NCBI RefSeq assembly: GCF_902833045.1
Contig: NZ_CADFDU010000004.1
Location: 124,001 to 188,000, forward strand
DNA from: Burkholderia sp. BCC0322
Lineage (GTDB): Bacteria > Pseudomonadota > Gammaproteobacteria > Burkholderiales > Burkholderiaceae
Direction: 5' to 3'
Length of the DNA: 64,000 nt
Both the position numbers and the translations under genes were made by a program. The notes beneath the pieces are model-generated. The model did no database searches. It worked only from the letters and a program-made list of their open reading frames with translations, and had not been told where the DNA came from. This document shows, piece after piece, positions 28,687 through 64,000 of this stretch; position 1 is the first letter of the stretch, and each line of letters opens with the position of its first letter.

Positions 28687-29169
28687 TCACGGCATGCGCG
28701 CCGCCGAGGCCGGCGCGGCGGCGGCCGCATCTGGATTCGGCGCGAGCCGCAGGCGCACGCGCAGCGGCTGCAGCATGTCGGGCGGCGGCGGCTCCGTCAG
28801 CGGGCCGGCGGTGAGCAGTTGCCGCAGCGTCGCGTCCGCGTCGGGATCGCCGAGCGACGCGAACTCGACGCGCGTGACGGCGCCGTTCGTGCCGATCCAC
28901 GCGCGCACGACGATCGCGGGCGGCGGCGCCTCGGCGCTCGCATTCAATACGCGCGCTTCGAGATAGCGGTGCAGACGATCGGCCGCGTCGCCGTCGGCTT
29001 CGAGCCACGTCTGGAACTGCTGCCCGGCGAGCTGTCCGTAGCGGATCCACGTTTGCGGCACGTCGGCCGTCTGTGCGACGGCCATCGACACGCCGCCTGC
29101 GAAAAGCGCCCACGCGACGACGATCGCCCGCCACCCACCGGATACGCCCCACTGCTGCATTCGCTTCAT
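28687..29169 (-). CDS. Exported TonB C-terminal-like protein
   Basis: A 160-residue protein with signal peptide (hydrophobic core to SMAVAQ) and a region IVVRAWIGTNGAVTRVEFASLGDPDADATL that follows the TonB/TolA C-terminal beta-alpha-beta pattern (strand, x-G-x-V, strand, polar turn, D-x2-L helix). It lacks a transmembrane anchor and proline spacer, so it is soluble in the periplasm. Strong GGAGG precedes the ATG. It is the last gene of the leftward block that starts at the TpsB gene. Confidence 0.7.
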   Translation of the reverse strand: MKRMQQWGVSGGWRAIVVAWALFAGGVSMAVAQTADVPQTWIRYGQLAGQQFQTWLEADGDAADRLHRYLEARVLNASAEAPPPAIVVRAWIGTNGAVTRVEFASLGDPDADATLRQLLTAGPLTEPPPPDMLQPLRVRLRLAPNPDAAAAAPASAARMP

Positions 29170-29233
29170 CCCGCCTCCCGTTTCGACGATGCGCCGACGC
29201 GCCGCGTTGCGTCGCCCGCTCGTCCTGCAACCC

Positions 29234-30697
29234 TCAGCCGATCTCGATCGGCACGTACAGGCGCGTGCCGCCGCGCTGGACGAGCAGCGCGACGTTGCCG
29301 TGCGCGGCGTCGATCTCGGTCATCAGCGCGCCGATGTTCGCGACCGGCGTGCCGTTGACCGACAGCACGACATCGCCGGGCTGCAACCCCGCGCGGGCAG
29401 CCTGGCCGCTCGCCTGCTCGACGACGAGCGCCTGGCCGACGCCGAGCCGCTGGCGCTCCTGGTCGGTCGCCGCGCGCAGCGCGAGCCCGAACCGCGCGGG
29501 CCCTTGCTCGCCGCTCGCCGACGCGGTGCCGCTGTCGAATGCGCCCACCGTCGCGCTCATGTGCATCGCCCGGCCCGCGCGCCACACGAGCAGGTCGGTT
29601 TGCCGCCCGGCCCGCATGCCTGCGACCGCGCCGAGCAGGTCCGCCGATTCGGCGACCGGCCTGCCGTCGACCGCGAGTACGACGTCGCCCGGCTGCAGGC
29701 CCGCGTGCGCGGCCGGGCCATCCGGCTCGACCACGGTGATCAGCGCGCCGTCCGGGTTGGCGAGGCCGAACGAACGCGCAAGCGCCTGGCTCACTTCCTG
29801 GACGGCCACGCCGAGCCGGCCGCGCGTGACCTTGCCGGTCCGCAGCAACTGGTCCTTCACGTCGAGCGCGATATCGATCGGAATCGCGAACGCGAGCCCC
29901 TGGTAGCCGCCCGTCTTCGAGAAGATCATCGAGTTGATCGCGATCACGCGGCCGCCGAGGTCGAACAGCGGGCCGCCCGAATTGCCGGGGTTGATCGGCA
30001 CGTCGGTCTGGATGAACGGAATCGCGCGCTCGCCGGGCAACGAGCGCGATTTCGCGCTGACGATGCCCTGCGTGACCGTGTTCGCGAACCCGTACGGCGA
30101 ACCGATCGCCATCACCCAGTCGCCCACTTCGGTGCGCGCCGGGTCGCCGGTCGCGACGACCGGCAGGTTGTGCGCGTCGATGCGGATCACCGCGACGTCG
30201 GAAACGGGATCGCTGCCGATCACACGCCCCTTGAACTGCCGCTTGTCGGTCAGCTTCACGTCGATCGCGACCGCATCGCCGACCACGTGCCGGTTGGTCA
30301 GGATCACGCCGTCCTCGCTGACGATGAAGCCCGAACCGAGGCTCACCTCCTCGCGATTGCCGATCACGCGGCGCGCAAGAAACGGCGCGAGCGGATGATC
30401 GGGCGCGATGCCCGGCGGCAACTGGATGCCCATCTGCGTGACTTCGCGCGTGACGCTGATGTTGACGACGGCCGGCCCGACACGCCGGACCAGCGCGGCA
30501 AAATTCGGCAGCGCGACGGTCGGCGCTGGCGTTGACGTCGACGTTGACGTCGACGTTGACGTCGGTGACGCGGCACCCGACTGCGCGGGCCGCTCGGCAG
30601 CCGTTGCCGTTGCGCAAACGCACGCGCAGGCCAACGCCAGCCCGCCGGCCATCGCTCGCGGCATCGCCGCCCGGTTCGTGTGCCTGCCCGCTTTCAT
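29234..30697 (-). CDS. HtrA/DegQ-type periplasmic serine protease
   Basis: A 487-residue trypsin-like protease with two PDZ domains. Signal peptide, then a Ser/Thr-rich linker (STSTST) encoded by a tandem DNA repeat, then protease domain with His137 (TNRHVV), Asp167 (SDVAVI) and Ser240 (PGNSGGP); PDZ1 about 290-370 and PDZ2 about 400-480. Works in periplasmic protein quality control; inside this cluster it may process or police secreted partners. The ATG at 30695-30697 with GAGGAA upstream is preferred over the longer frame. Confidence 0.93.
   Translation of the reverse strand: MKAGRHTNRAAMPRAMAGGLALACACVCATATAAERPAQSGAASPTSTSTSTSTSTPAPTVALPNFAALVRRVGPAVVNISVTREVTQMGIQLPPGIAPDHPLAPFLARRVIGNREEVSLGSGFIVSEDGVILTNRHVVGDAVAIDVKLTDKRQFKGRVIGSDPVSDVAVIRIDAHNLPVVATGDPARTEVGDWVMAIGSPYGFANTVTQGIVSAKSRSLPGERAIPFIQTDVPINPGNSGGPLFDLGGRVIAINSMIFSKTGGYQGLAFAIPIDIALDVKDQLLRTGKVTRGRLGVAVQEVSQALARSFGLANPDGALITVVEPDGPAAHAGLQPGDVVLAVDGRPVAESADLLGAVAGMRAGRQTDLLVWRAGRAMHMSATVGAFDSGTASASGEQGPARFGLALRAATDQERQRLGVGQALVVEQASGQAARAGLQPGDVVLSVNGTPVANIGALMTEIDAAHGNVALLVQRGGTRLYVPIEIG
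30531..30564. repeat. 12-bp tandem repeat in the protease linker
   Basis: GTTGACGTCGAC is repeated nearly three times (30531-30542, 30543-30554, 30555-30564 partial). On the coding strand it encodes alternating Ser-Thr between the signal peptide and protease domain. The unit is itself close to palindromic (GTCGAC, GACGTC). Copy number is likely to vary without frameshift because the unit is 12 bases. Confidence 0.9.
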
Positions 30698-30773
30698 GTC
30701 GCTGTTCCTCGTCGGTTCGCGCCGGAACGCCGCCGGCTCATCGCGCCCTGCGCCCCACGCTCGGCCGCATGCA

Positions 30774-31157
30774 TTACTTCGGCGGCACCGCGACCGGCGC
30801 ATCGGGCCGCTGCGGCGTCGCCGACCGGCCCCAGTTCGCGCCGAAACGGTTTCGCTCGGTCGACAGGTTGAACGTGCCGAGTCGGTTCGATGGCTGCTTC
30901 GACAGCCGCTCCGAATCCGTTTGCGACGCGCCCGCCTGCGGGTCGGCGTTCGGCTTCAGCTGCTGGCTGAGGCAGTCGTACGACAGCGCACGCTTGCCGT
31001 CGACCTCCGCATCGACGCACACCGGCTTCGTGGCCGAACCCGGACTGGCCGGTGCAGGCGCGGCCGCGCTCGCCGCCGCGCGGCCGACCTGCGCGTGTGC
31101 GCCGGTTGCCAGCAGCAGGCAGACAATCGTCGCGATGCCGCGTCGTCGCATCCTCAT
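30774..31157 (-). CDS. Small periplasmic protein of unknown function
   Basis: A 127-residue protein with an obvious signal peptide (M-R-M-R-R-R then hydrophobic core to GAHAQ) and a Ser/Ala/Pro-rich mature part carrying two cysteines (KPVCVDAEVDG; SYDCLSQQL) that could be disulfide-linked. The ATG at 31155-31157 has an ideal GGAGG 5 bases upstream; an in-frame ATG nine codons earlier is weaker. No family recognised. Same orientation as the secretion-associated genes around it. Confidence 0.6.
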   Translation of the reverse strand: MRMRRRGIATIVCLLLATGAHAQVGRAAASAAAPAPASPGSATKPVCVDAEVDGKRALSYDCLSQQLKPNADPQAGASQTDSERLSKQPSNRLGTFNLSTERNRFGANWGRSATPQRPDAPVAVPPK

Positions 31158-31203: not shown

Positions 31204-32034
31204 TCACAGGTTCGTCCCCGGCGCCGACGCGCGCGCCAGGAAACGCGCGAACGCCGCGCGATCGGACGCTTCGACGGCAGGCTCCTGTGCATCGACCTGC
31301 CGCACCCATGCGTCGCGCATGCCGTCGACCGGCTGCCACGCCTGCACCTGTGCGCCCGTCGGATAGGGCGTGACGAGCGGCTCGCGATAGTCGACGCGAA
31401 ACAGCGGCGGCGCGCTGCCGCCCGCCGTCCACAGATCGCCGACGTCGCGCACGCTCGCGTCGAACCAGAACCGCACCCAGCGCACCGCCGGCGCGCGCGT
31501 GTCGTTGCCGGGTGCATCGGCACCGCATGCGTCCGGCACGCGCAGGAAGCCGGCGAGCACGAGCAGCACGGCCGCCAGATCGTCGTCGCGCAACATCCGG
31601 TACGACCAGAGATCCGCCACGTCCACGCACGAGATCACCGCGATGAAGCGCCCGATCGTGAGCGCGGGCCACGCGCGCCGCATCAGCGTGTAATGGCGCG
31701 CCCACTGTGCCACGAAGCGCTCGCGATGCCGGGCGGCGACCTGCACGTCGCGCGAGCCGCGAATCGTCAGTTCCTCCGGCTGATACTGGCGGGTCGTGAG
31801 CACGCACTGCGCGGAGCACCGCGCGCTCCGGTGCCGTGCATAGCCGCCGGCACCGGGCAACGGCTCCAGTGCGCCGAAGCACAGCGGGCAATGCGTGGGC
31901 CACTCGCCGGGCCGGCCCGGCCACGGGTTCGCCTTCGGCATGCGCGGGCGGTCGGCCGCCGCGGCCGGACGGCGTCGCCCCGGCGTGCGCGGGTCGGGGG
32001 CGTCGACGCGCGGCGTCGAACGAACGGTTGCCAT
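31204..32034 (-). CDS. Hypothetical protein with N-terminal zinc-ribbon-like cysteines
   Basis: A 276-residue protein beginning with a disordered Arg/Pro-rich stretch, followed by Cys49-x2-Cys52 (THCPLCFG) and Cys73-x3-Cys77 (ARCSAQC), a likely zinc ribbon. The rest is mixed alpha/beta with Trp-rich segments (WVRFWFDASVRDVGDLW). No signal peptide, so probably cytosolic. It begins 8 bases after the parvulin gene ends. Function unknown; my recollection is that a zinc-ribbon-like hypothetical gene also neighbours the parvulin gene in the Pseudomonas locus. Confidence 0.6.
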   Translation of the reverse strand: MATVRSTPRVDAPDPRTPGRRRPAAAADRPRMPKANPWPGRPGEWPTHCPLCFGALEPLPGAGGYARHRSARCSAQCVLTTRQYQPEELTIRGSRDVQVAARHRERFVAQWARHYTLMRRAWPALTIGRFIAVISCVDVADLWSYRMLRDDDLAAVLLVLAGFLRVPDACGADAPGNDTRAPAVRWVRFWFDASVRDVGDLWTAGGSAPPLFRVDYREPLVTPYPTGAQVQAWQPVDGMRDAWVRQVDAQEPAVEASDRAAFARFLARASAPGTNL

Positions 32035-32042: not shown

Positions 32043-32933
32043 CTACCGGGCAGACGCGAGCGCTTTCTTCAGCGCGTCTTCGTTGATCGGTGCGTTCGCG
32101 GCGAGCTTCGCGAGATACGCCTGTGCATTCTGCTGCGTGCGCTGCGCACGCATCATCTCGCGCAGTTGCGCCTTCACGTCGGCCAGCGGACGCGGCGCGG
32201 CCGCGCGGACGTCGATCAGCTTCACGACATGAAAACCGGCCGGCGTCTGGATCGGTGCGGAGACCTGGCCCGGCTTCAGCGCGTCGGCCGCCTGCCGCAC
32301 TGCCGGCACCATCAGTTGATCGGGCACGAAACCGAGATCACCGCCGTTCGCGGCACTGGCCTTGTCCTGCGAGTTCGCCTTCGCGAGCGCGGAAAAATCG
32401 CCGCTGCGCGCGCGGTTCGCAAGATCGGCCGCCTGCTTGCGCGCCTTGTCGAGCGTGGCGGCATCCGCGTTCGGCGGCACCGCGATGTAGATCTGCGCGA
32501 CATGCAGCGCGCGCGGCGCGGTGAACGCGGCGCGGTTCTTGTCATACGCGGACTGCAACTCCGCGTCGGACGGATAGTCGGCCGGCGGCGCATTCACCGA
32601 CGCCAGGTAGCTGCGCACGACGATATCGCGCCGCGCCTGCTCGACGGCCGCCTGCACCTGCGCCTGCTTGTCCCAGCCCTTCGCTTTCGCCTCGGCCAGC
32701 ACGGCCTTCTGCGCGAGCGTCGAACGCACGACCTGGTCGAGCGCCGCGGGATCGGCCGCGAGACGTTCGCGCCCTTCCGGGCTCACCGTCTTCAGCAGGC
32801 CCGCGATGTCGTCCTGCGTGACCGACGCCTGCGCGGCATTCGCGATCACGTCGTCCTGTGCATGCGCGACGAACGGCACGCCCAGCACGAGACTGCCTGC
32901 CACGACCGCCAGCCTCTTCATCTTCGTCATCAT
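32043..32933 (-). CDS. Periplasmic parvulin-type peptidyl-prolyl isomerase
   Basis: A 296-residue PpiC/SurA-like folding catalyst: signal peptide (to VAHAQ), N-terminal helical chaperone part, parvulin domain about residues 150-245 (HVAQIYIAVPP; NGGDLGFVPDQLMVPAV; VSAPIQTPAGFHVVKLID) and a C-terminal helix. It would assist folding or export of outer-membrane or secreted partners in the periplasm. Start at the first of two ATG codons (32931-32933), GAGGG about 11 bases upstream. Confidence 0.9.
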   Translation of the reverse strand: MMTKMKRLAVVAGSLVLGVPFVAHAQDDVIANAAQASVTQDDIAGLLKTVSPEGRERLAADPAALDQVVRSTLAQKAVLAEAKAKGWDKQAQVQAAVEQARRDIVVRSYLASVNAPPADYPSDAELQSAYDKNRAAFTAPRALHVAQIYIAVPPNADAATLDKARKQAADLANRARSGDFSALAKANSQDKASAANGGDLGFVPDQLMVPAVRQAADALKPGQVSAPIQTPAGFHVVKLIDVRAAAPRPLADVKAQLREMMRAQRTQQNAQAYLAKLAANAPINEDALKKALASAR

Positions 32934-32977: not shown

Positions 32978-33391
32978 TCAGCGCGCGTCCGTCAGCGTCA
33001 TGCGCAGGACCAGCGGCTGCGCCATCCCGCGCGGCGGCGCCGCGCCGACCGCCCGGCCGACGAGTGCCGCATGCAGCGCGGCGTCGAGCGCCGGTGGTCC
33101 GGCCGCACCGCTGTCGACGCGCGTCACGTGCCCGTACCGGTCGAGCCACGCGCGCACCGGCAGCACGGGACCGTCGTCGCCGGCATCGGCCCGCTCGCCG
33201 GCCCAATGCTCGATGCCGGCACGCAGGAGGCACACCGCCGCGTCGTCGCCGTCAAGCGTCTCCTGCAGCCACAGCGCGGTACGCCGGGCATACGCGCCCC
33301 ACGCGGCGGGTGCGTCGCCCGCGGCTATCGCGTCCGCCTCACGCCGTGCACGGCCAGGCAGCAGCGCACGCAGCGCGGCGCCGATCCTCAC
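32978..33391 (-). CDS. Small TonB C-terminal-like protein (GTG start)
   Basis: A 137-residue protein whose second half LPVRAWLDRYGHVTRVDSGAAG..ALDAALHAALVG matches the TonB_C strand-turn-strand-helix pattern and resembles the protein at 28687. It begins with GTG at 33389-33391, overlapping the TGA of the upstream YbjN-like gene (GTGA), a sign of coupled translation. No signal peptide is seen, so it may be cytosolic or rely on a partner. Function unknown. Confidence 0.6.
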   Translation of the reverse strand: MRIGAALRALLPGRARREADAIAAGDAPAAWGAYARRTALWLQETLDGDDAAVCLLRAGIEHWAGERADAGDDGPVLPVRAWLDRYGHVTRVDSGAAGPPALDAALHAALVGRAVGAAPPRGMAQPLVLRMTLTDAR

Positions 33392-33975
33392 TTCGCAGTG
33401 GCCTCGACCGCTGCCGTGGCCGCTTCGACCGGCGATGCGCCTGCCTGACCGCCGGCCGTCGCGCGTGCCGCCGCTTCCTGCTCGGCCATCGCGGGACGGT
33501 TGCGCAGGTGCAGCAGGAATTCCTGGATCAGGCGATCCCATAGCTCGATCGTCGAACGCAGGTAGCGCTCGGACACGCCACCGGCGACGACCACGTCCAT
33601 TTCCAGCGCGAGAAACGGCCCGTGGCTCGCGAGACGCGCAAAGCGCTTGGTCCGGTTCCAGTCCGCGACGAGTTCGGCCGGCAATTCGCCCTGCACCTGC
33701 AGCACGCACGACAGCGTGTAGTCGATGAACAGCAGCGCGGCGGGCGGTGCGTCGGCGCCCTGCGGCGCGAGCGCGGCGGCCGGATTGCCGAAGCGCACCG
33801 CGAAGCCGATGCCCTGGCTTGCGCTCATCAGTTGCACCGCGCCGTTCTGTTCCGCCGCCGTCACGCGGTAGCCCGCGCGGCGCAGCACGTCGGCGAGGTG
33901 GTCGGCGCTGATCGCTTCGATCGGCGCGTCGTGTGCCGTGCGTTCGTCGCCGGCGTTCGGTTGCGTGTCTTGCAT
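33388..33975 (-). CDS. YbjN-like protein
   Basis: A 195-residue protein whose central region (ADVLRRAGYRVTAAEQNGAVQL; FIDYTLSCVLQVQGELPAELVADWNRTKRF; HGPFLALEMDVVVAGGVS) follows the YbjN / type III secretion chaperone-like fold. YbjN proteins are cytosolic modulators or chaperones. The Ala-rich C-terminal tail is probably disordered. ATG at 33973-33975 has GGGGAAG 8 bases upstream. A chaperone role for a secreted partner of the cluster is plausible but unproven. Confidence 0.75.
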   Translation of the reverse strand: MQDTQPNAGDERTAHDAPIEAISADHLADVLRRAGYRVTAAEQNGAVQLMSASQGIGFAVRFGNPAAALAPQGADAPPAALLFIDYTLSCVLQVQGELPAELVADWNRTKRFARLASHGPFLALEMDVVVAGGVSERYLRSTIELWDRLIQEFLLHLRNRPAMAEQEAAARATAGGQAGASPVEAATAAVEATAK

Positions 33976-34034
33976 GTCTGTCTTCCCCGTATTCAACGAA
34001 TCGATCGGTTCCATCCCGGCTGCGGGCCGCGCGC

Positions 34035-34712
34035 TTACTGCGCCTTCGTCGCGGCAGCCGACGCCGGTGTTGCGGCCGCCGGCCGCGCGGCCGGGTCGTA
34101 CTTGCCCGCATACAGCGCATCGCCGTAACGTTGCGCGATGTCGTCGTACTTCACGCGCGCCGACTGCGCGAACGGCTGACGCGACGAGAACAGCGTGCCG
34201 ATCCCGACGTGCTCGTACGCGTCGAGAATCTCGTGCCCCACGCGATACAGCTCGGCATTGTGTGCCTGGCAGGTTTTCAGTTGCGTGTCACGCGCGGCGG
34301 CGTCCTTCTGCAGTTGCGTGTGCTGCGCATCGCGGGCGCGCGACACGGCGAGCAAGTCCTCGTAGGACGACCTGTATTTCGCCAGCGACTTCGCGTCCTG
34401 CTCGCGGCCCGCGCGCTCCTGCGCGAGCGCACGCTTCGCAGCCGCCTCGGCGCCCGAATCGCCGCGCGCGGCCGCCAGTTGCCCCTGCATCGCCTTCAGT
34501 TGCGCGAGCGCGTCGTCGCGCTGCTTCTCGGCCGCCGCCTTGTCGCTCTGCAGCTGCGCCTGGTTGTCCTGCAACTGGCGCAGTTCCTGCACGGTCGAGC
34601 GCAACTGGCTGCGCAGCTTGTCCTCGATGCTCTGCGCGTGCGCGCCGCCGGCCGCGAGCAGCAGCGTGCCGGTCAGGGCGCTCGCGAACATCGTGCGAGT
34701 GATCGTGTTCAT
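34035..34712 (-). CDS. Periplasmic coiled-coil protein
   Basis: A 225-residue exported protein: signal peptide to GGAHAQ, then a long heptad-rich coiled coil (about residues 28-155, LRSTVQELRQLQDNQAQLQ onward, many Gln/Ala/Lys), then a C-terminal segment LYRVGHEILDAYEHVGIGTLF. One Cys (KTCQAHN). It lies directly after the Porin_5-like gene, 12 bases apart. It may span or tether the periplasm; no enzymatic motif. Confidence 0.7.
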   Translation of the reverse strand: MNTITRTMFASALTGTLLLAAGGAHAQSIEDKLRSQLRSTVQELRQLQDNQAQLQSDKAAAEKQRDDALAQLKAMQGQLAAARGDSGAEAAAKRALAQERAGREQDAKSLAKYRSSYEDLLAVSRARDAQHTQLQKDAAARDTQLKTCQAHNAELYRVGHEILDAYEHVGIGTLFSSRQPFAQSARVKYDDIAQRYGDALYAGKYDPAARPAAATPASAAATKAQ

Positions 34713-36628: not shown

Positions 36629-37333
36629 TCATGCCGGCTTGCGCCCCTGAAGCTTGACGAGCACCGGATACGAGGTCGCCGGCGGCGGCGCCTCGTCGAC
36701 CCGGCCAAGCGCTTCGACCGCCGCGACGACGGCCGCGTCGATCTTCGCGTCGCCGGTGGACTGCGCGACCGTCACCTTCGTGATGCGCCCCGACGTATCC
36801 ATCCACAGGTTCAGGCTGCCCGCGAAACGCGCGCCGCCGGCCTCCTGCACGCCCTTGTCCTGCTCGATCGCACGCTGCAGTACGTACACCATGTACTGCG
36901 CATAGCTCGCGTTGCCGAACTTGCCGCCCCCGCCGCTGCCGACCATCCCCGAGCCGTCGCCCGCGCCGATGCCGAAGTTGTCGGTGCCCGCCTGCGCATC
37001 GGCATTCATCGTCATCTGCTTCGGCTGGTTGTCCGACGGCTTCGGCGCCTCGGACGGCTTCGGCGCGATCGTCGGCCGGTCGACCGGCGTCTTGACCTCT
37101 TCCTTCACCTTCTCGGGCGGCGGCTTCTGTTTCGGTGGCGGCGGGGGCGGGGGCGGCGGCAACGGAATCACCGTCGTCACCTGCGGCGCGCTCACGCGCT
37201 TCACGCCCGCGGTATCGCCCGCGAAATGCCAGATCAGCGCGGCGAGCCCCGCGAGCACCAGCGCGATCGCGACGGGCTTCACGTAGCGGCCGGGGCCCTT
37301 GTCCGGCGGGCCGCCGTTGTAGGTCATTTCCAT
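36629..37333 (-). CDS. tonB: TonB-family energy transducer
   Basis: A 234-residue TonB-like protein: cytoplasmic N-terminus, single membrane anchor about residues 19-40 (VKPVAIALVLAGLAALIW), a polyproline run (about nine Pro at 59-67) with Pro/Lys spacer, a Gly-rich linker (GAGDGSGMVGSGGGG) and a TonB_C domain (GSLNLWMDTSGRITKVTVAQSTGDAKIDAAV). It couples the ExbB/ExbD proton motor to an outer-membrane partner. It follows exbD by 5 bases. No TonB-dependent receptor is in the window, so its partner may be unusual. Confidence 0.9.
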   Translation of the reverse strand: MEMTYNGGPPDKGPGRYVKPVAIALVLAGLAALIWHFAGDTAGVKRVSAPQVTTVIPLPPPPPPPPPKQKPPPEKVKEEVKTPVDRPTIAPKPSEAPKPSDNQPKQMTMNADAQAGTDNFGIGAGDGSGMVGSGGGGKFGNASYAQYMVYVLQRAIEQDKGVQEAGGARFAGSLNLWMDTSGRITKVTVAQSTGDAKIDAAVVAAVEALGRVDEAPPPATSYPVLVKLQGRKPA

Positions 37334-37337: not shown

Positions 37338-37748
37338 TCAGCCGCCCTGCTTCGCCTTGCCGGTCACGAGACCGACCTGCGACAGATCGAGGCGGCGCAG
37401 CAGGTCGAGCACGTCCATCACCTTCTGGTACTGCACGCCCGCGTCGCCCTTCAGCACGATCGGAAAATCCGGACTGGTCGCCTTCTCGGTGCGCAGCCGG
37501 CTCTCGAGTTCGTCCATCGTCACCGGGTACGCGTCGAGGAACACTTGCCCCGAATCGGCGACCGTGATTGCCTTCGTCTTCGGCTTCGCGAGACTCGCGG
37601 ACGAGCTCGCCTTCGGCAAATCGACCTTGATGCCCTGCACCGACGCGGTCGTCATGATGATGAAGATGATCAGCAGCACGTACGCGAGGTCGAGCATCGG
37701 CGTGATGTTGATGTCGTCGTACGGCTTGTCGTCGTCCTGAACCTGCAT
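37338..37748 (-). CDS. exbD: ExbD/TolR-family biopolymer transport protein
   Basis: A 136-residue ExbD/TolR protein with short cytoplasmic N-terminus, one membrane helix (MLDLAYVLLIIFIIMTTASVQG) containing the conserved Asp of the proton path (ITPMLDLAYVLL) and a periplasmic domain ending VQYQKVMDVLDLLRRLDLSQVGLVT. AGGAG precedes the ATG. It lies between the ExbB fusion and tonB, so the three make one motor. Confidence 0.95.
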   Translation of the reverse strand: MQVQDDDKPYDDINITPMLDLAYVLLIIFIIMTTASVQGIKVDLPKASSSASLAKPKTKAITVADSGQVFLDAYPVTMDELESRLRTEKATSPDFPIVLKGDAGVQYQKVMDVLDLLRRLDLSQVGLVTGKAKQGG

Positions 37749-55582: not shown

Positions 55583-58500
55583 TCAGAACCGGTTCAACTT
55601 CCCTAACTCCTCCTTGCTCAGCAACGTTCGCTGCGTCGGCCCCTCTGCCCCAAAACCCAGCAACGAAACCGAATTCGACGAATCGTAGCCAACCTGCTCC
55701 GACCTGCGCCGCTTCGATCCTCCATCCGGACTGTTATCACCAAAGCCCTCGACCTGCACGCTGATCGTCCAGCGACGCGGCGCGACGCCCGATGCGTTGT
55801 TCCTCGCGATGTCCTGCGCGACCTGGCTCGCCGCCGACGCCGCCGAACTCGCTGCCGTCAGCGCACCCGTGTTCACCGCCTGCACGAGCGGAATGCCAGT
55901 CGCCTTGCCCGTCACCTGGATGTTGTCCGCGTTCACCACACGCAAAGCCGCAACGTTCAGGTTGCCCGCGCGAATGCCGGCGTCGCCCGCATCGACGGTA
56001 CCGCGCGGCGCGATCAGGTTGACCGTGCCTTTCGGCGCACCCGGTATGCTCTGCAGCGTCGCAATACCCGCACCCGTCACCTGCCCGCGCGAATCGACCG
56101 TGCAGTAATGGTTCGCATCGCAGACATACTGCGGCGCCGGCGTGTCGGCCGACGTTTTCGCGCCCTTGCCTGCGTTGATGTCCCCGTTCGAACTCCAGAT
56201 TGTCATGTCGCCGCCTTGCTCGGTGAAGATCCGGCTCTGCGCAAGCAGCACGCTTTGATCCGTAAAGATGTCGACGTTCCCCTTCTCGAGCGTCAGGATC
56301 CCCATCGTGCCGGGGCCCGCCACTACCTTCCCGGTGCTGTCGACGATCTGTGGCGGCGCCGTCGTGCTGCCCACGAGCGCCTGCCCGCCGGGACCGAGGA
56401 TCGTCACGTCGCCGCCCTGCTGCGTCTGGATCGTCGTGCTGCGAATGTCGAGATCGCCGGTGGCAACCTGCTTGTTCGAGCCATTCGAGCCACCGCCCAG
56501 ATTGTTTGCGGTATAGCCGAACGAAGCCGGGAACAGCGTGTTGATCGCCTGATAGCCTCGCGCGTACTGGCCGCTGTACGGACTCGACGGATCGTTGAAG
56601 TCCGTGCCGACTTGCGCGAGCACGCCGAACAGCACCTTCTCCGCGAAGAGTTGCTGGACATACGATGGCAGCGTCTGGAATTGCTTCCACGCTTCGTCAC
56701 CCGTCAGCCGGCCGACCGTCGCCAGCGCCGCATCCTTGTCGGCCTGCAGGCCCGTATCGACGCCAAGCCCCGCGTCGTATTGCTCCATGAATGCAATCAG
56801 TGCCGGCGTTACGCTCGGCACGCCGGCAACCGAACTGCCCGGCGCGATATAGGTCGAGACGAACGCCGGCAGATCGACGCCGGGCCCCACCCCGAACAGC
56901 ACGTTGACGTTCGCGCTCTCGTGCGGCAAGTTCGGATTGTTCGCGTTTCCAACTGCATCGATACCCGTGAAAACGTGCGCGATTCCACCCGTGTCGGCAT
57001 TCCGGTTATACAACTCGGCTTGACTCGTCAACGGGCCGACATTGCGTCCCGCCTGAACATCGAACCAGCCCGGTCCGCCGATCTCCAGCACCCGAACAGC
57101 CCCACCGCCGTTGGGAGCAATCGGTGTGTCATAGATGTCACGGCCGGCCACGATACGCGTCACATCCGAGCCACGCAGATTCTGCCCCCAGAACGCGAGA
57201 TTCACGATGTCCTGTCCGGCGTACACGAGCGCCGGTTTGTCCACCGATAGCGTCACGAGATTCCGGTAGAACCCGTCACTGCTGCTGGACGTATCGACCG
57301 TGCCGTTGACGACGCTTCCGTTCAAGCTGTAAATGCGCGCAGGTTGGAAGTCGGCACCATGAAGCGCATTCAACGCATGTGCTGCGAGCGTCGTATCCGT
57401 CAACGCCGGGATATTCGGCTTCAAGCTCGGATTCGTCGGCGAAGGCATCTGCGACGGATCCGCGTCCGACAAACCGAACGTATTCGGCAATGGTGCATCG
57501 GTTCGCGTGGCAGATACGTTGGACAGGTATACCGATTGGCCCGCGATCAAATTCAATTGACCGACCGCCGACGGATAGAGAACGCCTCCGGATTGGACGT
57601 CAATTGCACCGTCGAATGCGGTCATGTTCAGGCTCGCGGGTAACACGCCATTCGCCCCGGTCAACGCCCCCCCGAGCGCGCCGAACCGAACGTCGCCGGT
57701 CGTGGACAGCACATTGACCGCCGAAGTCGGGGAATAGACCTGATTGTCGGGATACTGGCCATAGCCGGAAAGATTGATGACACTGGTCGGCTGTCCACCG
57801 CTCTGTGAAAAGCTGCTTGAAAAAGACGGATTCAGTACTGCGCCGATCCCCACACCCTGACGTGCGGTAACATCGAATATTCCGTCCTGAGTCGCAAGCA
57901 CCGTCGATGCATCGGTCGGACTAGCTCCACTCACTTTCGGGGCGACGGAAATATCGGACCCGATACGCCCGCCAGCCGATATCGTCCCCGTTCCCTTCGC
58001 AACGAAGTAGTCACCACTCAGAATGTCTCCACCGGATCGTACCGTCAGATTTCCTCCCCCGACAGTGACAGGCTTGCCGCTTCCGTCCAGGTACCAGGTG
58101 GTCGGCAGCGACACGGCCAGGTCTGAAATATTGCCGCCGGCGCTGATCGATACATTACCGCCGACACTCATTACGCCTTGGTCGAATGCGCCGAAGTCGA
58201 TCGAGGTTCGGGTCAGCGGCGCGACAACAATTTGACCGTCGGTTGTTTTCCCCGCGGTAATCTGCATCCACTGCCACCAGTACTGGCTGATGCTGTTGCC
58301 GGCATTTCCCGTTACCGCTCCGGTCGTATCGATCACGTTCTGCATGCCGCTGATGTCGCCCTGAGCATGAATCGTGACGTCTCCCGCGGAATCGGGATTC
58401 ACCGCCGGCGTGACCAGAACGTCCTGCGTACCGCTCGCTCCCTGTGCAATCGCGGTCGCGACACCGACCGACGGCGCCCCCGCTGCCGGTGCGCCCGCCG

Positions 58501-61500
58501 TATAGATCGCGCCTGGAATGACCAAAGTGGACGAATCAGCAGTCTTCGTCGTGTCGAACAACGACACGCCGTTCCCCGCGGCGACGTCGATCGAGCCGGT
58601 GCCGGTACGAACCGTCACCGGCTCCACGAGCGTCAAACCGTTACTGTCGACGTATCCGGTATGTCCGCTCAACATCACGTTGCCCGCACCGGGCGACGTT
58701 GCGCCCGAACTCGCGAACATCGAAACGGGCTGCAACGCCAGCGGGTTCGCGCTCGACACATCGGCGCCGGACACGATCCGATACGAAGAGCTTTCACCGC
58801 CGAGCAACGTCGCAAAAGCTATCGGCAACGGGTTGTTCGCGGTCGGCACGTTTGCCGCCGTGTTGCCCGGCAGCGCCCCGATGTTCACGACCCCCGTATC
58901 TGGCACCGACGCTGGCGCATTCGGTGCATAAAACATGTTGTAAGCGCCGCGCGGCGTTCCGAGAATGCTCTTGGTACCACGCACGCGATCGGAGTATTGC
59001 GAATATCCAAGTATGTAGTTTGCGTAGTCGGCCAGATATGCCGCTTGTCCGGAAGGCGACGTGTTTGCGGCCGGCCCCGTCGGCGGAGTAGGCGCGTCAG
59101 GTGTGCCGAAGCGAATGACTGAAACAATCGTGTATCCACCGAGATACGCATCAATAGCCTTGGGACCAGTAAGGTCCGGCCCCCAGTATGCGGTCAGATA
59201 GTCGGTATATGTCGCGAATTGCGCCGGATTCGGCGCCTTCGTAACCGATGCTTTGACCGGAAGGATATGCCCGACGAAATTCCCTGCCGTCGACGATGAA
59301 ATCCACGCCTCGGTAGTCGTCTGCCACGCTCCCGCGTACGACAGATACGCGGAGTAATAACCGGCAGTCTGGGCCATCAACGGCGCGGTAAGCGCAGCAT
59401 TCGGATCAAGCGATACCAGGCCTTCAACGCTTCCATTCGTAAAAGTTACATTCACCTGCGTCGGATCGTCGATCGACACGAGCTGATCGAACTTCTGCTT
59501 CGCGTCCGTGTAGGTCCCCGTCGCCGTGACCGGCCCCGCCCCACCCAGAATCGACGCCACCTGGCTCTGATAGAACCCGTCCGAAATGCTTGCGTACGCA
59601 TCGAAATCGTTCGCCGCGCGGAACGTCAGCGTCGGCGCGATCGTCGACCGATAGCGGAAATCGGGTGTGATGCTGCCGCTGTTGTTCGGCGCGCCCGCGC
59701 CGAGGTTCCAGTTCGACAACACCGAAATGTTGCCGCCGTTGACGGCGTTGCCCGGATTGTCGAGCTCGATGCCCGGCACGACGCTGAAATTCTGCAACGA
59801 CGCACCGGCAAACTGGCCGGCGACACCATCCGGGCCATGCTGAACGAACGCCATCAACGTGCCCGGCGAAGTACCGGAACCGCCGGCGCGATACCCATAG
59901 AACGCGACATGATCGCCGTTCGCGGTCCCCGCGACGAAGTACGCACCTGTCAGGCCGGTAAAGCCGCTGCCGGAAATCCCGTTGCGCAATTGATCCTCGG
60001 TCACCGACGTCGACTCTCCGGTCGCGTTGTTGACGAGCGTTCCGCCGCCTGCGCCGCCAGGCGTATAGCTGTACGTTACCGGCGTGCTGCCCGGCACCGT
60101 GAACGTTCCCGCAAGCAGATGGCCACTGCCGTCGTACCAACCGGCCGGATCGATGAGGCCGTCGAAATGCTGCGAGCCGGTCGTCGCATCCGCTGCGCTC
60201 CATACGGCATATGCCTCGACGGTCGTCTTGCGCGAGCCGCGCACACTGCTTCCATCGAGCGCGACATTGACCGTGCCGTCGCGCAGCAACGGCGCACGGA
60301 AGTTGACCGTGCCGTCGAGCGTGCCCCCCGGCGTACCGCCGGACACGTCGATCGATGCGTTCGAGCCGAGCCGGATCAACCCGGACTGCGCGGCGGATAC
60401 ATTCTCGTAGCCGTAAGTCGCGTTATACGGATCGGCTACGGCCGGATCGAACGTCGCGCTCGTGCCGATCGCGACCTTGCCGCCGCGCTGGCTCGCATCG
60501 GTCGCTTTCGCGAGCAGCGAACCTTCGATATCGACGCCGCTCTTGCCGTACAGGTTGATCTGCCCGCCCGCCTTGCCCGACGCATCGATCGTCCCCAGCA
60601 CGTTCACGTTGCCGTTCGCCATATCCGATGCGTTGCCCGCGCCGCCATCGGCCGTCAGCGACACCGCACGCGCGGTCAGCGCATTGCCGGCCGACAGCGT
60701 CAGGTTGCCCGACCGCGTATGAATGTCGATCGACTGGTTCACGCCGCTCGAGGCGAGCGTCTTCGCGAGCGAATCGAGGTCGGCCGCGCCGCCCGTGTCG
60801 AGCGACAGCGAGCCGCCCGCGTAGCCGTTCGTCGCGCCGCCCTTGATCGTGCCGTTCAGGTTCACGACCTGCTTCGGCGCCGACAGCGTCAGGCTGCCCG
60901 CCGCGCCGCCCCCCTTCGCGCCCGAGAAATCGAGCGTCGCGCCCGGTTGCACGTCGACGGTCCCCGCATCGGCGGTCAGGATGATCGAACCGGCCGGCGC
61001 GTACTGCGTCACGTCGAAGAACTGCTTCGACACACCCGCCGAACTGACCGTCGAACCACCGCCGATCGTCAGGTTGCCGGTCGTCGCCTCGAGGCCGACA
61101 TTGCCGGCCGGTGCGGCGATCGTCGCGCCGTTGTCGGCCAGCGTGCCGCCGATGAACTTCCACGCGCCGCCTACCGGCGTGTTCGACAATGCGGTGCCCG
61201 CCGCGCCGTTCAGCGCCAATGCGCCGGTCGTCTTAACGGTCGACGCGGAACTCGTATCGGCCAGGTACACGGGCGCATTCAGCGTCACCGGCAGCGCACC
61301 GAAATCGAACGTCCCCGTGCCTTGCCCGACGATGCCGCCGGTCGCCGTCAGGTTAGCCGACGAGAATCCGCTCAGCGTCTTCGTGCCGGTGCCGAAGTCG
61401 ATCTCCTTCGCGTTGACCGTCAGCGTACCGCTGCCCGGCGTGACGGCGCCGTTCGCCGCACCCGTCTCGTTCGTGAACGCGATCTGCTGCCCGTTCAGCG

Positions 61501-64000
61501 TCACGTGGCCGCCATCGCTCGTGAACGTGCCCGCGCTCAGGTCGACGCTCTTGCCGAACGTCGCGTTCACGTCGCCGACGAAGCCCATCGCACCGTAGCT
61601 GCGCAGCGACACGAGATCGGCGTTGGCGAGTTGCGCCAGGCCCGCCTGATCAATCACGAAACCCGGCAGCGCCGCCGCGGCCGCGCCGCTTGCATTCGTC
61701 AACGTGATCGCCGAGCCATCGACGGTGATCGCTTTCGCGGACAGCACCGCGCTCGGATCGACCTTCAGGTTGCCCGACGAATCGAGCATCAACGCCTGAC
61801 CGCCCGACAGCGTCGCGCCTGCGCCGACCGTCAGCAGCCCCGTGCCGGTGCCGCCCGTGCGCGTGAGCGGCGCCATCGCGCCGTTCGACACGCGCAGCAG
61901 CGCACCGTCGCCGGCGATCGTGATCGGCTGGTCCTTCGCCGCCGGGTAGTCGCCCGCCGCCGCGATCGACGCGCCCGCGTCCACGCGCAAACCGTTCGCC
62001 GCGCTCGGATCCGTGCCGCTCGCGTCGGTTTTCGTCACGAGCAGGATCTCGGGCCCCTTCAGCGACGAGTTGCCATCGTTCGACACCACGACGCTGTTCG
62101 CGATCGGCGTGATCGTCACGCCCTTGGTCGCCGCCGCACGTGTCCCGCCGATCAGCAGGCTGCCCGCATTCAGCGAATCTAGCGCGTCGCCGCCGATCTG
62201 CAGATAGCCGGGCAACGCCGCGCTGCCGTTGCCGGTGACCTGGATGTCCTGCGACGCGATATCGACCTCCGCCGGCGCGCCGCCCGGGCCGGCCGCCGCG
62301 TTCAGCGTCGCGCCAAGCGCGAGCGCCTTCGTCGCGGCCAGCACGAGCTGGCCGCCATCCACCGGCAGCGGCGGGGTCACGTTGCCCTGCTTCGCGGCCT
62401 GCGCGGTGAAGAAGTCGTTCGCGCCCTTCAGCGTGTACTGCGAGTACTGCTGCCACGTCGCGCCCGACTGCACGTTGAAGAGCGTCGGCGTCGCGCTGCG
62501 GCCGCCCGTCACCGCATCGGCAAAATATCCGGCCGTCATGACGGTGCCGTCCGGCAGCACCTGCGACGCGCCCGGCACGACGTTGCCGGTCGCGGCCGAC
62601 ACGGTCACGCGGTACGCACCCGGCAGCGTCGCGTACTTGCCCGGCAGCAGTGTGTAGTAGCCGGGCGCGAGGCCCGGCACGCCGGAGAGGTACACGGCCT
62701 TGCCGATCCCATCGTTCGACCCGGCCTGGCCGACGCCCAGCGTCACGGTCTTGGTCGTCGGCGTGCCGTTGCTGGCGACATCCGGCTGCACGGTCTGCGC
62801 GAACAGCGGATCGTATGCGGCGACCGGCGATTGCGTGCCCGGCACGATCGCATAGACGTTCCCGCCGCCGGCATTGACCGGCACCGCCGTCGCGCCCTTG
62901 CCGCTCGCATAGCTCACGTTGTATTGCGACAGCACGTCGCGCGTGCCGCCCGTGCCCGGCACCCATTCGGCAGCCTGCAGGTCGCCGCCGCCGGACAGGT
63001 CGATCGTCGCGCCCTTGTTGAGTGCGACGCTGGTGCCGTTGACCCCGATGTACTTCGCTGGCGGCGCATTCAGGTCCGACGCCGTCGTGCCAGCGATTGG
63101 ATTGAATTGCCATTCGACGCCATCGACCGTCGTGCCGTAAGGAATGATCGAACCGCCGTTCGAAACCGACGTCACGCTGCCGTTAGCGAAGGTCACCGAA
63201 TCCGTCGCCACGAGCGGCAGGTTGCCGAACTGCTTCTGCGTCGCACTGTTCGTCGGGTCGCCGACGCCGAACACGAGCGTGCCCGACGGCGCGCGCACGG
63301 TGCCGCCCTGCACGATGTTCGTCGCGTCGACGAGCAGCGTGCCGCCGGCTGACAGCGGCGTGCCGGACAAGCCGGTCGTGCCGAACGTGACGGTGGTCGG
63401 CACGGGTTTGCCGGTGGTCGAATCGACCGGGCCGACCGCGTCGACGATGAACGTGCTACCGGTCGCCGGATACACGTCCGCTGCCTTGAACGTCACGTTG
63501 CCAGGCGTGTACAGCATGCCGGGCGCCAGCCCGACGGGGCCGCTCTGCGCCGCGCTGGTCGAACCGAGTCGGATATCGCCGCTGCTCGTGAAGTTCGCTT
63601 GGCCGAAATTGTTCAGTTGGAACTGATTGCGCAGGTCGAGGAACGATGCGCTCACGTTCAGCGTCGCATCGGAGAGCGTCGCGACTGGCGCGAACGCGGG
63701 TGTCGATGAGGTTGCCGTCGGCCCCGCCAGCGCGACATAAGGTGCGTTGATCGTCACCGTCGTGCCGAGCGGATGTGCCGGCGGCTGCGCGAGCAGGTTC
63801 ACCAGCGCCGAATTGCCGTTCGCCGGGGTAGACAGCAGCGTCGAGAGTTGGTCCGTGCCGATCGCCGCGATGCGTCCGGTGTTCAGCGTCACCGATTCGG
63901 GCAACGTGAGGTTCACGTCGCCGGCAAACACGATCGGCGGCACCGGCGCAAGAATCGGAGACGGCGTGCTGTCACCCAGCACGAGATTCGCGATTCCCGA
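55583..64000 (-). CDS. Giant filamentous haemagglutinin-like exoprotein (TpsA, DUF3739 type), 5' end missing
   Basis: The last 2805 residues of a leftward gene that is still open at the window edge. The sequence is a long run of beta-helix-like repeats rich in Gly, Ala, Ser, Thr, Asn and Val (repeated short patterns such as GGNVSISAGGNI, LTVGAGATLSGG). The C-terminal third (GSITPDFRYRSTIAPTLTFRA; GTISAGGRIGSDI; VLFGVGPGVDLPAFVSTYI) matches the filamentous haemagglutinin family DUF3739 region. The C-terminus has a Cys pair (VCDANHYC) and ends KLNRF. The secretion (TPS) domain must lie beyond 64000. The TpsB at 39631 is the probable transporter. By content it resembles PdtA of P. aeruginosa (from memory). 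The ORF start at 63982 is an internal GTG, not the real start. Confidence 0.9.
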   Translation of the reverse strand, partial: SGIANLVLGDSTPSPILAPVPPIVFAGDVNLTLPESVTLNTGRIAAIGTDQLSTLLSTPANGNSALVNLLAQPPAHPLGTTVTINAPYVALAGPTATSSTPAFAPVATLSDATLNVSASFLDLRNQFQLNNFGQANFTSSGDIRLGSTSAAQSGPVGLAPGMLYTPGNVTFKAADVYPATGSTFIVDAVGPVDSTTGKPVPTTVTFGTTGLSGTPLSAGGTLLVDATNIVQGGTVRAPSGTLVFGVGDPTNSATQKQFGNLPLVATDSVTFANGSVTSVSNGGSIIPYGTTVDGVEWQFNPIAGTTASDLNAPPAKYIGVNGTSVALNKGATIDLSGGGDLQAAEWVPGTGGTRDVLSQYNVSYASGKGATAVPVNAGGGNVYAIVPGTQSPVAAYDPLFAQTVQPDVASNGTPTTKTVTLGVGQAGSNDGIGKAVYLSGVPGLAPGYYTLLPGKYATLPGAYRVTVSAATGNVVPGASQVLPDGTVMTAGYFADAVTGGRSATPTLFNVQSGATWQQYSQYTLKGANDFFTAQAAKQGNVTPPLPVDGGQLVLAATKALALGATLNAAAGPGGAPAEVDIASQDIQVTGNGSAALPGYLQIGGDALDSLNAGSLLIGGTRAAATKGVTITPIANSVVVSNDGNSSLKGPEILLVTKTDASGTDPSAANGLRVDAGASIAAAGDYPAAKDQPITIAGDGALLRVSNGAMAPLTRTGGTGTGLLTVGAGATLSGGQALMLDSSGNLKVDPSAVLSAKAITVDGSAITLTNASGAAAAALPGFVIDQAGLAQLANADLVSLRSYGAMGFVGDVNATFGKSVDLSAGTFTSDGGHVTLNGQQIAFTNETGAANGAVTPGSGTLTVNAKEIDFGTGTKTLSGFSSANLTATGGIVGQGTGTFDFGALPVTLNAPVYLADTSSASTVKTTGALALNGAAGTALSNTPVGGAWKFIGGTLADNGATIAAPAGNVGLEATTGNLTIGGGSTVSSAGVSKQFFDVTQYAPAGSIILTADAGTVDVQPGATLDFSGAKGGGAAGSLTLSAPKQVVNLNGTIKGGATNGYAGGSLSLDTGGAADLDSLAKTLASSGVNQSIDIHTRSGNLTLSAGNALTARAVSLTADGGAGNASDMANGNVNVLGTIDASGKAGGQINLYGKSGVDIEGSLLAKATDASQRGGKVAIGTSATFDPAVADPYNATYGYENVSAAQSGLIRLGSNASIDVSGGTPGGTLDGTVNFRAPLLRDGTVNVALDGSSVRGSRKTTVEAYAVWSAADATTGSQHFDGLIDPAGWYDGSGHLLAGTFTVPGSTPVTYSYTPGGAGGGTLVNNATGESTSVTEDQLRNGISGSGFTGLTGAYFVAGTANGDHVAFYGYRAGGSGTSPGTLMAFVQHGPDGVAGQFAGASLQNFSVVPGIELDNPGNAVNGGNISVLSNWNLGAGAPNNSGSITPDFRYRSTIAPTLTFRAANDFDAYASISDGFYQSQVASILGGAGPVTATGTYTDAKQKFDQLVSIDDPTQVNVTFTNGSVEGLVSLDPNAALTAPLMAQTAGYYSAYLSYAGAWQTTTEAWISSSTAGNFVGHILPVKASVTKAPNPAQFATYTDYLTAYWGPDLTGPKAIDAYLGGYTIVSVIRFGTPDAPTPPTGPAANTSPSGQAAYLADYANYILGYSQYSDRVRGTKSILGTPRGAYNMFYAPNAPASVPDTGVVNIGALPGNTAANVPTANNPLPIAFATLLGGESSSYRIVSGADVSSANPLALQPVSMFASSGATSPGAGNVMLSGHTGYVDSNGLTLVEPVTVRTGTGSIDVAAGNGVSLFDTTKTADSSTLVIPGAIYTAGAPAAGAPSVGVATAIAQGASGTQDVLVTPAVNPDSAGDVTIHAQGDISGMQNVIDTTGAVTGNAGNSISQYWWQWMQITAGKTTDGQIVVAPLTRTSIDFGAFDQGVMSVGGNVSISAGGNISDLAVSLPTTWYLDGSGKPVTVGGGNLTVRSGGDILSGDYFVAKGTGTISAGGRIGSDISVAPKVSGASPTDASTVLATQDGIFDVTARQGVGIGAVLNPSFSSSFSQSGGQPTSVINLSGYGQYPDNQVYSPTSAVNVLSTTGDVRFGALGGALTGANGVLPASLNMTAFDGAIDVQSGGVLYPSAVGQLNLIAGQSVYLSNVSATRTDAPLPNTFGLSDADPSQMPSPTNPSLKPNIPALTDTTLAAHALNALHGADFQPARIYSLNGSVVNGTVDTSSSSDGFYRNLVTLSVDKPALVYAGQDIVNLAFWGQNLRGSDVTRIVAGRDIYDTPIAPNGGGAVRVLEIGGPGWFDVQAGRNVGPLTSQAELYNRNADTGGIAHVFTGIDAVGNANNPNLPHESANVNVLFGVGPGVDLPAFVSTYIAPGSSVAGVPSVTPALIAFMEQYDAGLGVDTGLQADKDAALATVGRLTGDEAWKQFQTLPSYVQQLFAEKVLFGVLAQVGTDFNDPSSPYSGQYARGYQAINTLFPASFGYTANNLGGGSNGSNKQVATGDLDIRSTTIQTQQGGDVTILGPGGQALVGSTTAPPQIVDSTGKVVAGPGTMGILTLEKGNVDIFTDQSVLLAQSRIFTEQGGDMTIWSSNGDINAGKGAKTSADTPAPQYVCDANHYCTVDSRGQVTGAGIATLQSIPGAPKGTVNLIAPRGTVDAGDAGIRAGNLNVAALRVVNADNIQVTGKATGIPLVQAVNTGALTAASSAASAASQVAQDIARNNASGVAPRRWTISVQVEGFGDNSPDGGSKRRRSEQVGYDSSNSVSLLGFGAEGPTQRTLLSKEELGKLNRF

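Follow-up and report, generated by a model that had tools for sequence, protein, structure and literature searches.

An incomplete type II secretion gene set in the Burkholderia counterpart of the PUMA3 island: closest kin and candidate partners

Why does an island that holds a two-partner adhesin and a surface-signalling system also carry parts of a type II secretion system (T2SS)? The question is raised by a stretch of 64,000 nucleotides from Burkholderia sp. BCC0322 (the window). The nearest genome is that of Burkholderia lata R-18110, with 29% of sampled 31-mers in common with the window, which puts this DNA probably near the cepacia complex. An earlier note had described part of this DNA as a rearranged homologue of the vreAIR/PUMA3-hxc-pdt locus of Pseudomonas aeruginosa, and all the gene classes that it named were recovered in their places by gene calls and Pfam. 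Papers are cited below by PMC number.

The island and the Pseudomonas locus

The adhesin, Ton, outer-membrane and signalling genes, with two genes on the opposite strand, are as follows.

28687..29169, minus strand: small secreted TonB-C-terminus-like protein (no Pfam domain)
29234..30802, minus strand: HtrA-type protease with two PDZ domains (Pfam Trypsin_2, 2.1e-32)
30774..31151, minus strand: small secreted protein with counterparts in Dyella and Luteibacter loci (62/78 named loci)
31204..32034, minus strand: unknown protein (no Pfam domain)
32043..32933, minus strand: PpiC-type parvulin (Pfam, 2.9e-23)
32978..33391, minus strand: small protein related to the gene at 28687 (dN/dS 0.635, weakly constrained)
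33388..34014, minus strand: YbjN-like protein (Pfam, 2.8e-8)
34035..34712, minus strand: coiled-coil secreted protein in the position of PA0697 (orthologues in 6/6 Pseudomonas loci)
34725..36536, minus strand: Porin_5 outer-membrane protein in the position of PA0696 (Pfam, 1e-190)
36629..37333, minus strand: TonB-like protein (Pfam TonB_2, 1e-4)
37338..37748, minus strand: ExbD (Pfam, 9.5e-29)
37767..39563, minus strand: ExbB fused to DUF2341 and LamG domains (Pfam; contiguous cluster in 74/78 named loci)
39631..41352, minus strand: TpsB outer-membrane transporter (Pfam ShlB 1.3e-23, POTRA_2 1.9e-17)
42110..42676, plus strand: unknown membrane protein, 188 aa (no Pfam or NCBIfam family; 21 sequences aligned)
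45548..46372, plus strand: conserved protein, 274 aa (no Pfam or NCBIfam family; 23 sequences aligned)
46631..46882, minus strand: free-standing anti-sigma N-tail, DUF4880 only, 83 aa (Pfam DUF4880, 3.8e-9)
47140..48135, minus strand: VreR-like anti-sigma factor, DUF4880 and FecR (Pfam; Pseudomonas VreR match 8e-65)
48147..48695, minus strand: VreI-like ECF sigma factor (Pfam; dN/dS 0.099)
48702..49448, minus strand: VreA-like protein with STN and TonB C-terminal domains and no barrel (Pfam STN 3.5e-10, TonB_2 2.1e-8)
55583..64000, minus strand: TpsA exoprotein of the FHA type, C-terminal 2805 residues (Pfam DUF3739, 1.8e-38)

TpsA is cut by the right edge of the window and its N-terminus lies outside. 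In a relative (G018) the TpsA N-terminus has the FHA/TPS domain TIGR01901 (NCBIfam, 1.7e-16), Pfam gave no domain there, and the region aligns with TpsA of a Pseudomonas locus (G440) at 37% over 398 columns. The pair is a two-partner secretion (TPS) system, with a POTRA-ShlB transporter and an FHA-type exoprotein whose N-terminal TPS domain was checked in that relative. The small protein at 28687..29169 matches Pseudomonas TonB reading frames (best 3.9e-7) and a small reading frame beside PpiC in G440 (5.6e-12), and the 274-aa protein occurs in 28 of the 39 Burkholderiaceae-like loci and in none of the 39 other named loci.

The earlier note had asked for a synteny comparison across Burkholderia, and the row from TpsB through ExbB, ExbD, TonB and Porin_5 to the coiled-coil protein was unbroken in 74 of 78 named loci. 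The full-length ExbB-LamG fusion was matched in 16 of 25 genomes of the same genus, in 16 of 274 genomes across the class (E 1e-60) and in 67 of 398 Pseudomonadaceae genomes (E 1e-50); the ExbB domain alone was matched in all 41 genomes searched. Given the intact row and the frequency of the full-length fusion within the genus, the gene grouping is not due to chance.

From the 67 Pseudomonadaceae genomes with the fusion, stretches of 60 kb were examined around six Pseudomonas loci, all from species other than P. aeruginosa. They contain T2SS genes F, E, D, M, L, K, G, C and H, a DING gene, TpsA and TpsB (TpsA of one locus, L136 in G422, is in two pieces), and the same row of ExbB-ExbD-TonB, Porin_5, coiled-coil protein, YbjN and PpiC as the window. 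The DING gene lies beside GspF in both the Pseudomonas loci and the Burkholderia island. Genes for VreA, VreI and VreR were present in three of the six stretches (G440, G645 and G676), in the same order as in the window, where they form one operon-like row; two other stretches (G436 and G422) stop a short way past the T2SS genes, and vreAIR was not found in the 14 kb beyond these genes in the last one (G582). Judged by gene content and order, the island represents the vreAIR/PUMA3 locus in its Burkholderiaceae form, as the earlier note had proposed. The homology has already been published for B. vietnamiensis by Llamas et al. 2009 (PMC2729926, the source of the PA numbers used here), whose Discussion calls the T2SS genes hxc-like homologues; closeness to gsp, missing parts and GspI-GspJ beyond tpsA are not stated in the available text of that Discussion.

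The island resembles the P. aeruginosa PUMA3 system (PMC2729926, PMC4971064) in its VreA architecture, sigma and anti-sigma factors, TPS pair, ExbB/ExbD/TonB, Porin_5, coiled-coil, YbjN and PpiC proteins, its DING gene and, apparently, a pho-like box at tpsA. Unlike PUMA3, its T2SS genes are incomplete and closest to another system; it has a free anti-sigma tail, another PhdA architecture, TPR glycosyltransferases and HtrA, and its box also stands at GspI-GspJ, a glycosyltransferase, the DING genes and GspF.

VreA of the window has the structure by which VreA-type receptors are defined in PMC2729926, namely an STN domain and a TonB/TolA-like C-terminus without a beta-barrel. All 15 Burkholderia relatives have the free anti-sigma tail, as do 4 of 7 others; in the Pseudomonas loci it matched nothing but VreR itself. 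Its median dN/dS was 0.378 over 16 regions (maximum 1.17) and 0.235 in 10 regions, with an aligned span of 83-92 aa. In P. aeruginosa a laboratory VreR fragment, VreR86, inhibits sigma-VreI without degrading it (PMC4971064). Since this fragment is of about equal extent, the 83-aa product of 46631-46882 is probably a soluble brake on the sigma factor. The free tail is a natural counterpart of the laboratory fragment.

Relatives also show how far the island extends. There it reaches GspI, and the distance from the C-terminal end of tpsA to this gene is about 21 kb; GspI is therefore expected about 13 kb beyond the window edge. Beyond TpsA come two to four TPR proteins, then GspJ and then GspI. 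GspI passed its NCBIfam cut-off; GspJ scored 31.9 against a cut-off of 64.85 bits, yet it is 35% identical to housekeeping GspJ. The two TPR proteins tested (in G018) have a Glyco_transf_9-like end; such genes lie between TpsA and GspJ at L034:1951-6543 and at equivalent places in other relatives. These proteins may glycosylate TpsA. Like HMW1C and HMW2C of TPS adhesins (PMC5422565), their genes stand beside an adhesin gene, but unlike them they are TPR and Glyco_transf_9-like proteins known from the island relatives only. On its other side the island adjoins a Rieske-oxygenase and ThDP-enzyme cluster, recognized by eye at 11242-27806 of the window, which has two similar IclR-type regulators (20463 and 26928).

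The type II genes and their closest kin

Five T2SS components are encoded in the window.

42737..43705, plus strand: GspK minor pseudopilin (Pfam T2SSK, 5.8e-12)
49631..50098, minus strand: GspH minor pseudopilin (Pfam 7.6e-5, N_methyl 3.8e-7)
50142..50630, minus strand: GspG major pseudopilin (Pfam, 8.1e-41)
50692..51138, plus strand: GspC, on the opposite strand as in the housekeeping operon (Pfam T2SSC, 2.2e-7)
51147..52364, minus strand: GspF platform protein, island paralogue (Pfam T2SSF, 2.4e-59)

GspD, GspE, GspL and GspM were not found in the window by phmmer, either with Hxc queries or with housekeeping queries, and so the window has neither a complete Hxc set with secretin HxcQ and ATPase HxcR nor any other self-sufficient T2SS. 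These four genes are also absent from most Burkholderia regions read, where the T2SS genes present cannot make up a machine by themselves.

The island proteins were compared with the housekeeping gsp operons of four Burkholderia genomes and with the T2SS genes of three Pseudomonas loci. GspF was 85% identical to its housekeeping counterpart (the split G009 copy being aligned in pieces) and 52-53% to Hxc; the values were 84% vs 61-66% for GspG, 52-54% vs 32-42% for GspH and 37-38% vs 28-31% for GspK. GspC was 50-54% identical to housekeeping copies over 76-86 residues and 34% to Hxc over 88, in short alignments with one Pseudomonas hit. In relatives, GspI was 51% identical to its housekeeping counterpart. 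The housekeeping gspF of G009 (L208) is in two frames, which could be an assembly error, and its island gspF is intact.

Gene order gives the same picture. The window order F, C (opposite strand), G, H is that of the housekeeping operon, and the island relatives have D-E-F-C-G-H-L-M as that operon does, in contrast to C-G-K-L-M-D-E-F in Pseudomonas. A tree of 30 rows was made for GspF, the one component treed; one Pseudomonas outgroup row has a long branch. Island and housekeeping GspF formed one clade apart from Hxc GspF (98/98), and 12 of 13 island sequences fell in a single clade (99/100). The exception, from P. sediminicola (G718), fell outside the island clade with a placement that lacks resolution, and the island T2SS of this species may thus have had a second origin. 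By identity for all five components, and for GspF by the tree as well, the island genes are not reshuffled hxc genes, as the earlier note had supposed; their closest kin is the Burkholderiaceae housekeeping gsp operon, with which they also share the divergent gspC. Because Hxc is the next branch out, the direction of copying cannot be read from the GspF tree by itself; an origin of the island set as a copy of the housekeeping operon is favoured by the gene order and by the scarcity of T2SS matches outside Burkholderiaceae and Pseudomonas. The housekeeping operon differs from the island in being complete, compact and on another contig (six genomes).

Which parts were kept was counted in 20 fully covered regions, 13 from Burkholderia and 7 from Paraburkholderia and Trinickia. 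The window (cut), one partial region (L116) and two regions ending at contig edges (G008, which has a piece of E at the edge, and G010) were left out. F, H, I, J and K were present in 20/20, C in 16/20, G in 13/20, L and M in 7/20, D in 5/20 and E in 4/20; E and D were anchored by Pfam places, and L and M were named by similarity and position. Housekeeping queries additionally revealed GspM in G001, G013 and G008. A self-sufficient set was present in 4 of the 20 regions. Complete sets together with vreAIR occur in P. podalyriae (G724) and Trinickia fusca (G716), which suggests that a complete set was the ancestral state of the island. In Paraburkholderia acidicola ATCC 31363 (L055/G712), a soil relative, island F, H, I, J and K occur along with vreAIR, the free anti-sigma tail, two DING genes and the promoter box described below.

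Beyond these regions, 15 more genomes that carry the ExbB fusion were examined, and 13 of them have island-type GspJ; neither of two genomes without the fusion has it. B. multivorans WS-FJ9 (G722, the same as G015) has kept island H, J and K, and no second GspF was found there at E 1e-120. Burkholderia sp. WAC0059 has a single GspF, beside GspE and equally close to the island and housekeeping kinds, and a single island-type GspJ, on contig C12, whose number suggests that it is the island contig; this strain may have no T2SS other than that of the island. Pararobbsia (G730, locus L070) has the TPS genes, and its F and J are of the housekeeping type only.

A common promoter box, DING proteins and PhdA

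The remaining features of the island lie before tpsB and between GspF and TpsA.

43740..45407, minus strand: PhdA-like protein, IS4-transposase-derived region and C-terminal Phd domain
52668..52706, plus strand: island promoter box, copy facing the PstS-like gene (1 mismatch in the 11-base core)
52869..52907, minus strand: island promoter box, copy facing GspF (1 mismatch in the 11-base core)
53026..54357, plus strand: DING-family phosphate-binding protein with signal peptide (Pfam PBP_like_2; PDB matches from 7e-50)
54490..55491, plus strand: second DING/PstS-like copy, N-truncated, without signal peptide (Pfam PBP_like_2, 2.4e-15)

The earlier note had linked the island to phosphate limitation. 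The strict pho box CTGTCATN4CTGTCAT was not found in the window with up to 3 mismatches (2.3 expected by chance), nor was YTGTCAYN4YTGTCAY with up to 2. At the latter threshold one YTGTCAYN4YTGTCAY box was found near the 5' end of the Lap/DING gene in all six Pseudomonas loci, and as a positive control the paired box was found upstream of the true pstS in G009, with the same pair in G024, G018 and G017. Loss of the phosphate link, considered from the strict scan, was dropped when a dyad search revealed a degenerate composite box, AATGGTCCGTA followed by a degenerate pho-like repeat.

With up to one mismatch in its 11-base core, the box stands before TpsA, GspI and the second TPR gene (TPR2) in 13/13 Burkholderia regions, before the DING gene in 12/13 and facing GspF in 10/13. 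The exact core has 40 copies in these 13 regions, 2-4 in each; among 500 permuted cores the mean was 0.17 copies and the highest count 13, and none reached 40. The permuted cores are the valid control, since the antisense control of the dyad search mirrors the same sequences and is uninformative. The box was present in 18/18 fully covered regions with vreAIR and in neither of the two without (G718 and G723). The two window copies are at the same places as in relatives and, taken alone, are not significant.

In the Pseudomonas loci, ATGACAAAAGTTCGGT (up to 2 mismatches) stands before PhdA in 6/6 and before TpsA in 5/6 (the exception being G440). PhoB and sigma-VreI elements have been mapped before pdtA and phdA of P. 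aeruginosa (PMC4971064), and we infer that the Pseudomonas motif corresponds to these. Read on the opposite strand, the motif is ACCGAACTTTTGTCAT, which is similar to GGTCCGTAGCTTTTGTCAT, the Burkholderia copy beside TpsA; at most sites other than TpsA the Burkholderia box has the opposite orientation to the Pseudomonas one. The box appears to tie TpsA, GspI-GspJ, a glycosyltransferase, the DING genes and GspF together, and it resembles the Pseudomonas PhoB/sigma-VreI promoter. Phosphate control of the island would have to act through degenerate boxes of this kind. A higher GspF signal has been measured by qPCR in WS-FJ9 at low soluble phosphate in organic-phosphate medium (PMC7275115). It was set aside as island evidence because the printed forward primer matches the housekeeping copy only, and it is therefore silent on the island.

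The protein at 53026..54357 is similar over its whole length to DING structures in the PDB search and matches a Pseudomonas island gene at 3.5e-26; we take it to occupy the place of Pseudomonas lapA/lapB. Homology of the second copy to the first starts inside the 54490..55491 gene, and this copy is a probable remnant. Of the PstS-like secreted proteins in the earlier description, the first has a signal peptide (by eye) and the second is N-truncated. Many relatives have two or more DING matches at the place of the second copy.

The PhdA-like protein shares its Phd domain, but not the rest, with the Pseudomonas protein. The domain is nearly unchanged across the relatives aligned, and at 21.6 bits it lies below the Pfam cut-off of 29.8 for PF02604, so that it does not qualify as Phd/YefM. 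In the IS4 region, the glutamate of the aligned IS copy is unmatched in 5/5 Burkholderia rows and the DDE triad is not intact, and Pseudomonas PhdA has its Phd domain linked to a different transposase domain, DUF772. A Phd domain was located at L138:17840-18448, and a short frame of 108 aa in L116 contains nothing but this domain. In front of tpsB, at one and the same position, Phd is thus found joined to two unrelated transposase-derived regions, or alone.

What the retained type II parts may do

That the island keeps part of a machine closely related to a second one in the same cell suggests that these parts plug into the cell's own machine, and we give this reading a probability of about 0.5. 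The island consists of three modules with a common promoter box: the two-partner adhesin TpsA/TpsB together with outer-membrane helpers and a dedicated Ton motor (ExbB-LamG, ExbD, TonB); surface signalling by VreA-VreI-VreR with the free extra anti-sigma tail; and a cut-down type II system closest to the cell's gsp operon. Sigma-VreI and PhoB would switch the box on, and island H, I, J and K would then form an alternative pseudopilus tip on the island GspF platform, joined by island C and G where these are kept. The ATPase E, the secretin D and L/M would be supplied by the housekeeping gsp system, and the hybrid machine would export proteins left aside by the housekeeping tip, namely the DING proteins and perhaps others. 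The link between tip and DING proteins rests on neighbourhood and the common box. The view in the earlier note that signalling, two secretion routes and PstS-like effectors work as one unit keeps the common box in its favour and loses a self-standing T2SS in the window. Stepwise loss, which also resembles decay, the loss of C and G in some regions, the absence of a second GspF in WS-FJ9, the mostly opposite orientation of the box relative to Pseudomonas and another secretin on the island's contig in 5/6 genomes count against the plug-in reading.

The T2SS genes might instead be a duplicate on its way to being lost, a remnant that secretes nothing or serves as spare parts. The unequal loss across the 20 regions (D and E most, then L and M, then G, then C) fits this, as does WS-FJ9, but the same five genes survive in every fully covered region. 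Selection also speaks against it. Pairwise dN/dS was computed with an own script from pairs with dS 0.05-2; its median over up to 16 regions was 0.11 for GspF, 0.193 for GspH, 0.162 for GspG, 0.225 for GspK and 0.343 for GspC. In ten regions already without D, E, L and M the medians were 0.094 for F, 0.166 for H, 0.196 for K, 0.276 for I and 0.238 for J (I and J in 9 regions), 0.29 for C and 0.11 for G (G in 5/10), and in the same regions VreI had 0.099 and TpsB 0.137. GspF is thus constrained like the sigma factor, and purifying selection at 0.09-0.28 after the loss of D, E, L and M speaks for continued function of the kept genes. We therefore regard decay as unlikely.

The kept pseudopilins and GspF might also work with another engine, such as a type IV pilus or Tad ATPase and another secretin, in adhesion or DNA uptake. 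Six genomes assembled in 3-7 contigs were searched for PF00437 ATPases and PF00263 secretins, and neither was found in 60 kb at the island. Each genome has one strong GspE beside a secretin on another contig, which is the housekeeping system, and several further PF00437 ATPases and secretins that could serve, with weaker ATPase-secretin pairs in G024 and G023. In 5/6 genomes the contig with the island carries another secretin, at a distance of roughly 130-220 kb and with no GspE hit adjoining; these secretins, in frames of about 790-825 aa, are at G018 C2:1823285, G023 C2:564725, G025 C2:785994, G009 C2:1346143 and G024 C2:765359. An island GspF that is 85% identical to housekeeping GspF would be expected to fit GspE best, which makes a different engine improbable.

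It is just as improbable that the tip genes serve the TPS branch, in display, stretching or release of TpsA with the Ton motor and the TPR glycosyltransferases. GspI and GspJ do adjoin these glycosyltransferases and TpsA and share the box of TpsA, but 39 of the 78 loci, which come from Dyella, Luteibacter, Caulobacter and others and lie outside the Burkholderiaceae-like group, have 10-kb flanks in which island F, G, H, K and C are all unmatched, and TpsB is present in 38 and TpsA in 35 of them. Pararobbsia likewise has the TPS genes without island Gsp matches. Six Luteibacter loci match the Hxc secretin query.

Finally, a reordered, self-sufficient hxc system is refuted for the window by the missing D, E, L and M, and its softer form, in which an hxc-like island set is the ancestor of both the island and the housekeeping gsp genes, has the shared neighbourhood, the DING gene beside GspF and the next-branch position of Hxc in its favour but is very improbable given the identities, the order D-E-F-C-G-H-L-M of the compact housekeeping operon, the lack of D, E, L and M in most Burkholderia regions and the scarcity of T2SS matches in loci outside Burkholderiaceae and Pseudomonas.

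The plug-in reading has partial parallels. XphA/XqhA is an orphan GspC-GspD pair of P. aeruginosa that works in a hybrid machine. Both it and the island are orphan T2SS parts; XphA/XqhA swaps the channel and clamp, and the island would swap the tip and platform. The tip complex XcpUVWX, the counterpart of H-I-J-K, has been structurally characterised (PMC6211770). Among the papers listed in searches on hybrid, orphan or incomplete T2SS and on the tip, no title or abstract opening described such a cassette. In a Tn-seq screen of B. vietnamiensis LMG 16232, each housekeeping gsp gene from D to M was hit for loss of lipase secretion, and a gspD on chromosome 3 was hit once (PMC13101487). If the strain carries the island, its island copies are thus no replacement for lipase secretion, a result equally expected if the island genes were silent.

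More broadly, and tentatively, at somewhat less than even odds, the island T2SS may be a swappable tip cassette, pared towards HIJK and F, that re-targets the housekeeping machine, with Hxc in Pseudomonas and a gsp relative in Burkholderiaceae separately recruited to the same TPS/Ton/sigma island beside a DING gene. The setting is one in which HIJK and F, kept by selection, adjoin adhesin and DING genes, and in which the paring differs among lineages. If true, this would explain why a T2SS is present in the island at all, and would suggest that the TPS/Ton/sigma module drew in type II parts more than once. It would also be a natural split of tip and platform from engine and channel, by which substrate choice in type II secretion would become testable through gene removals.
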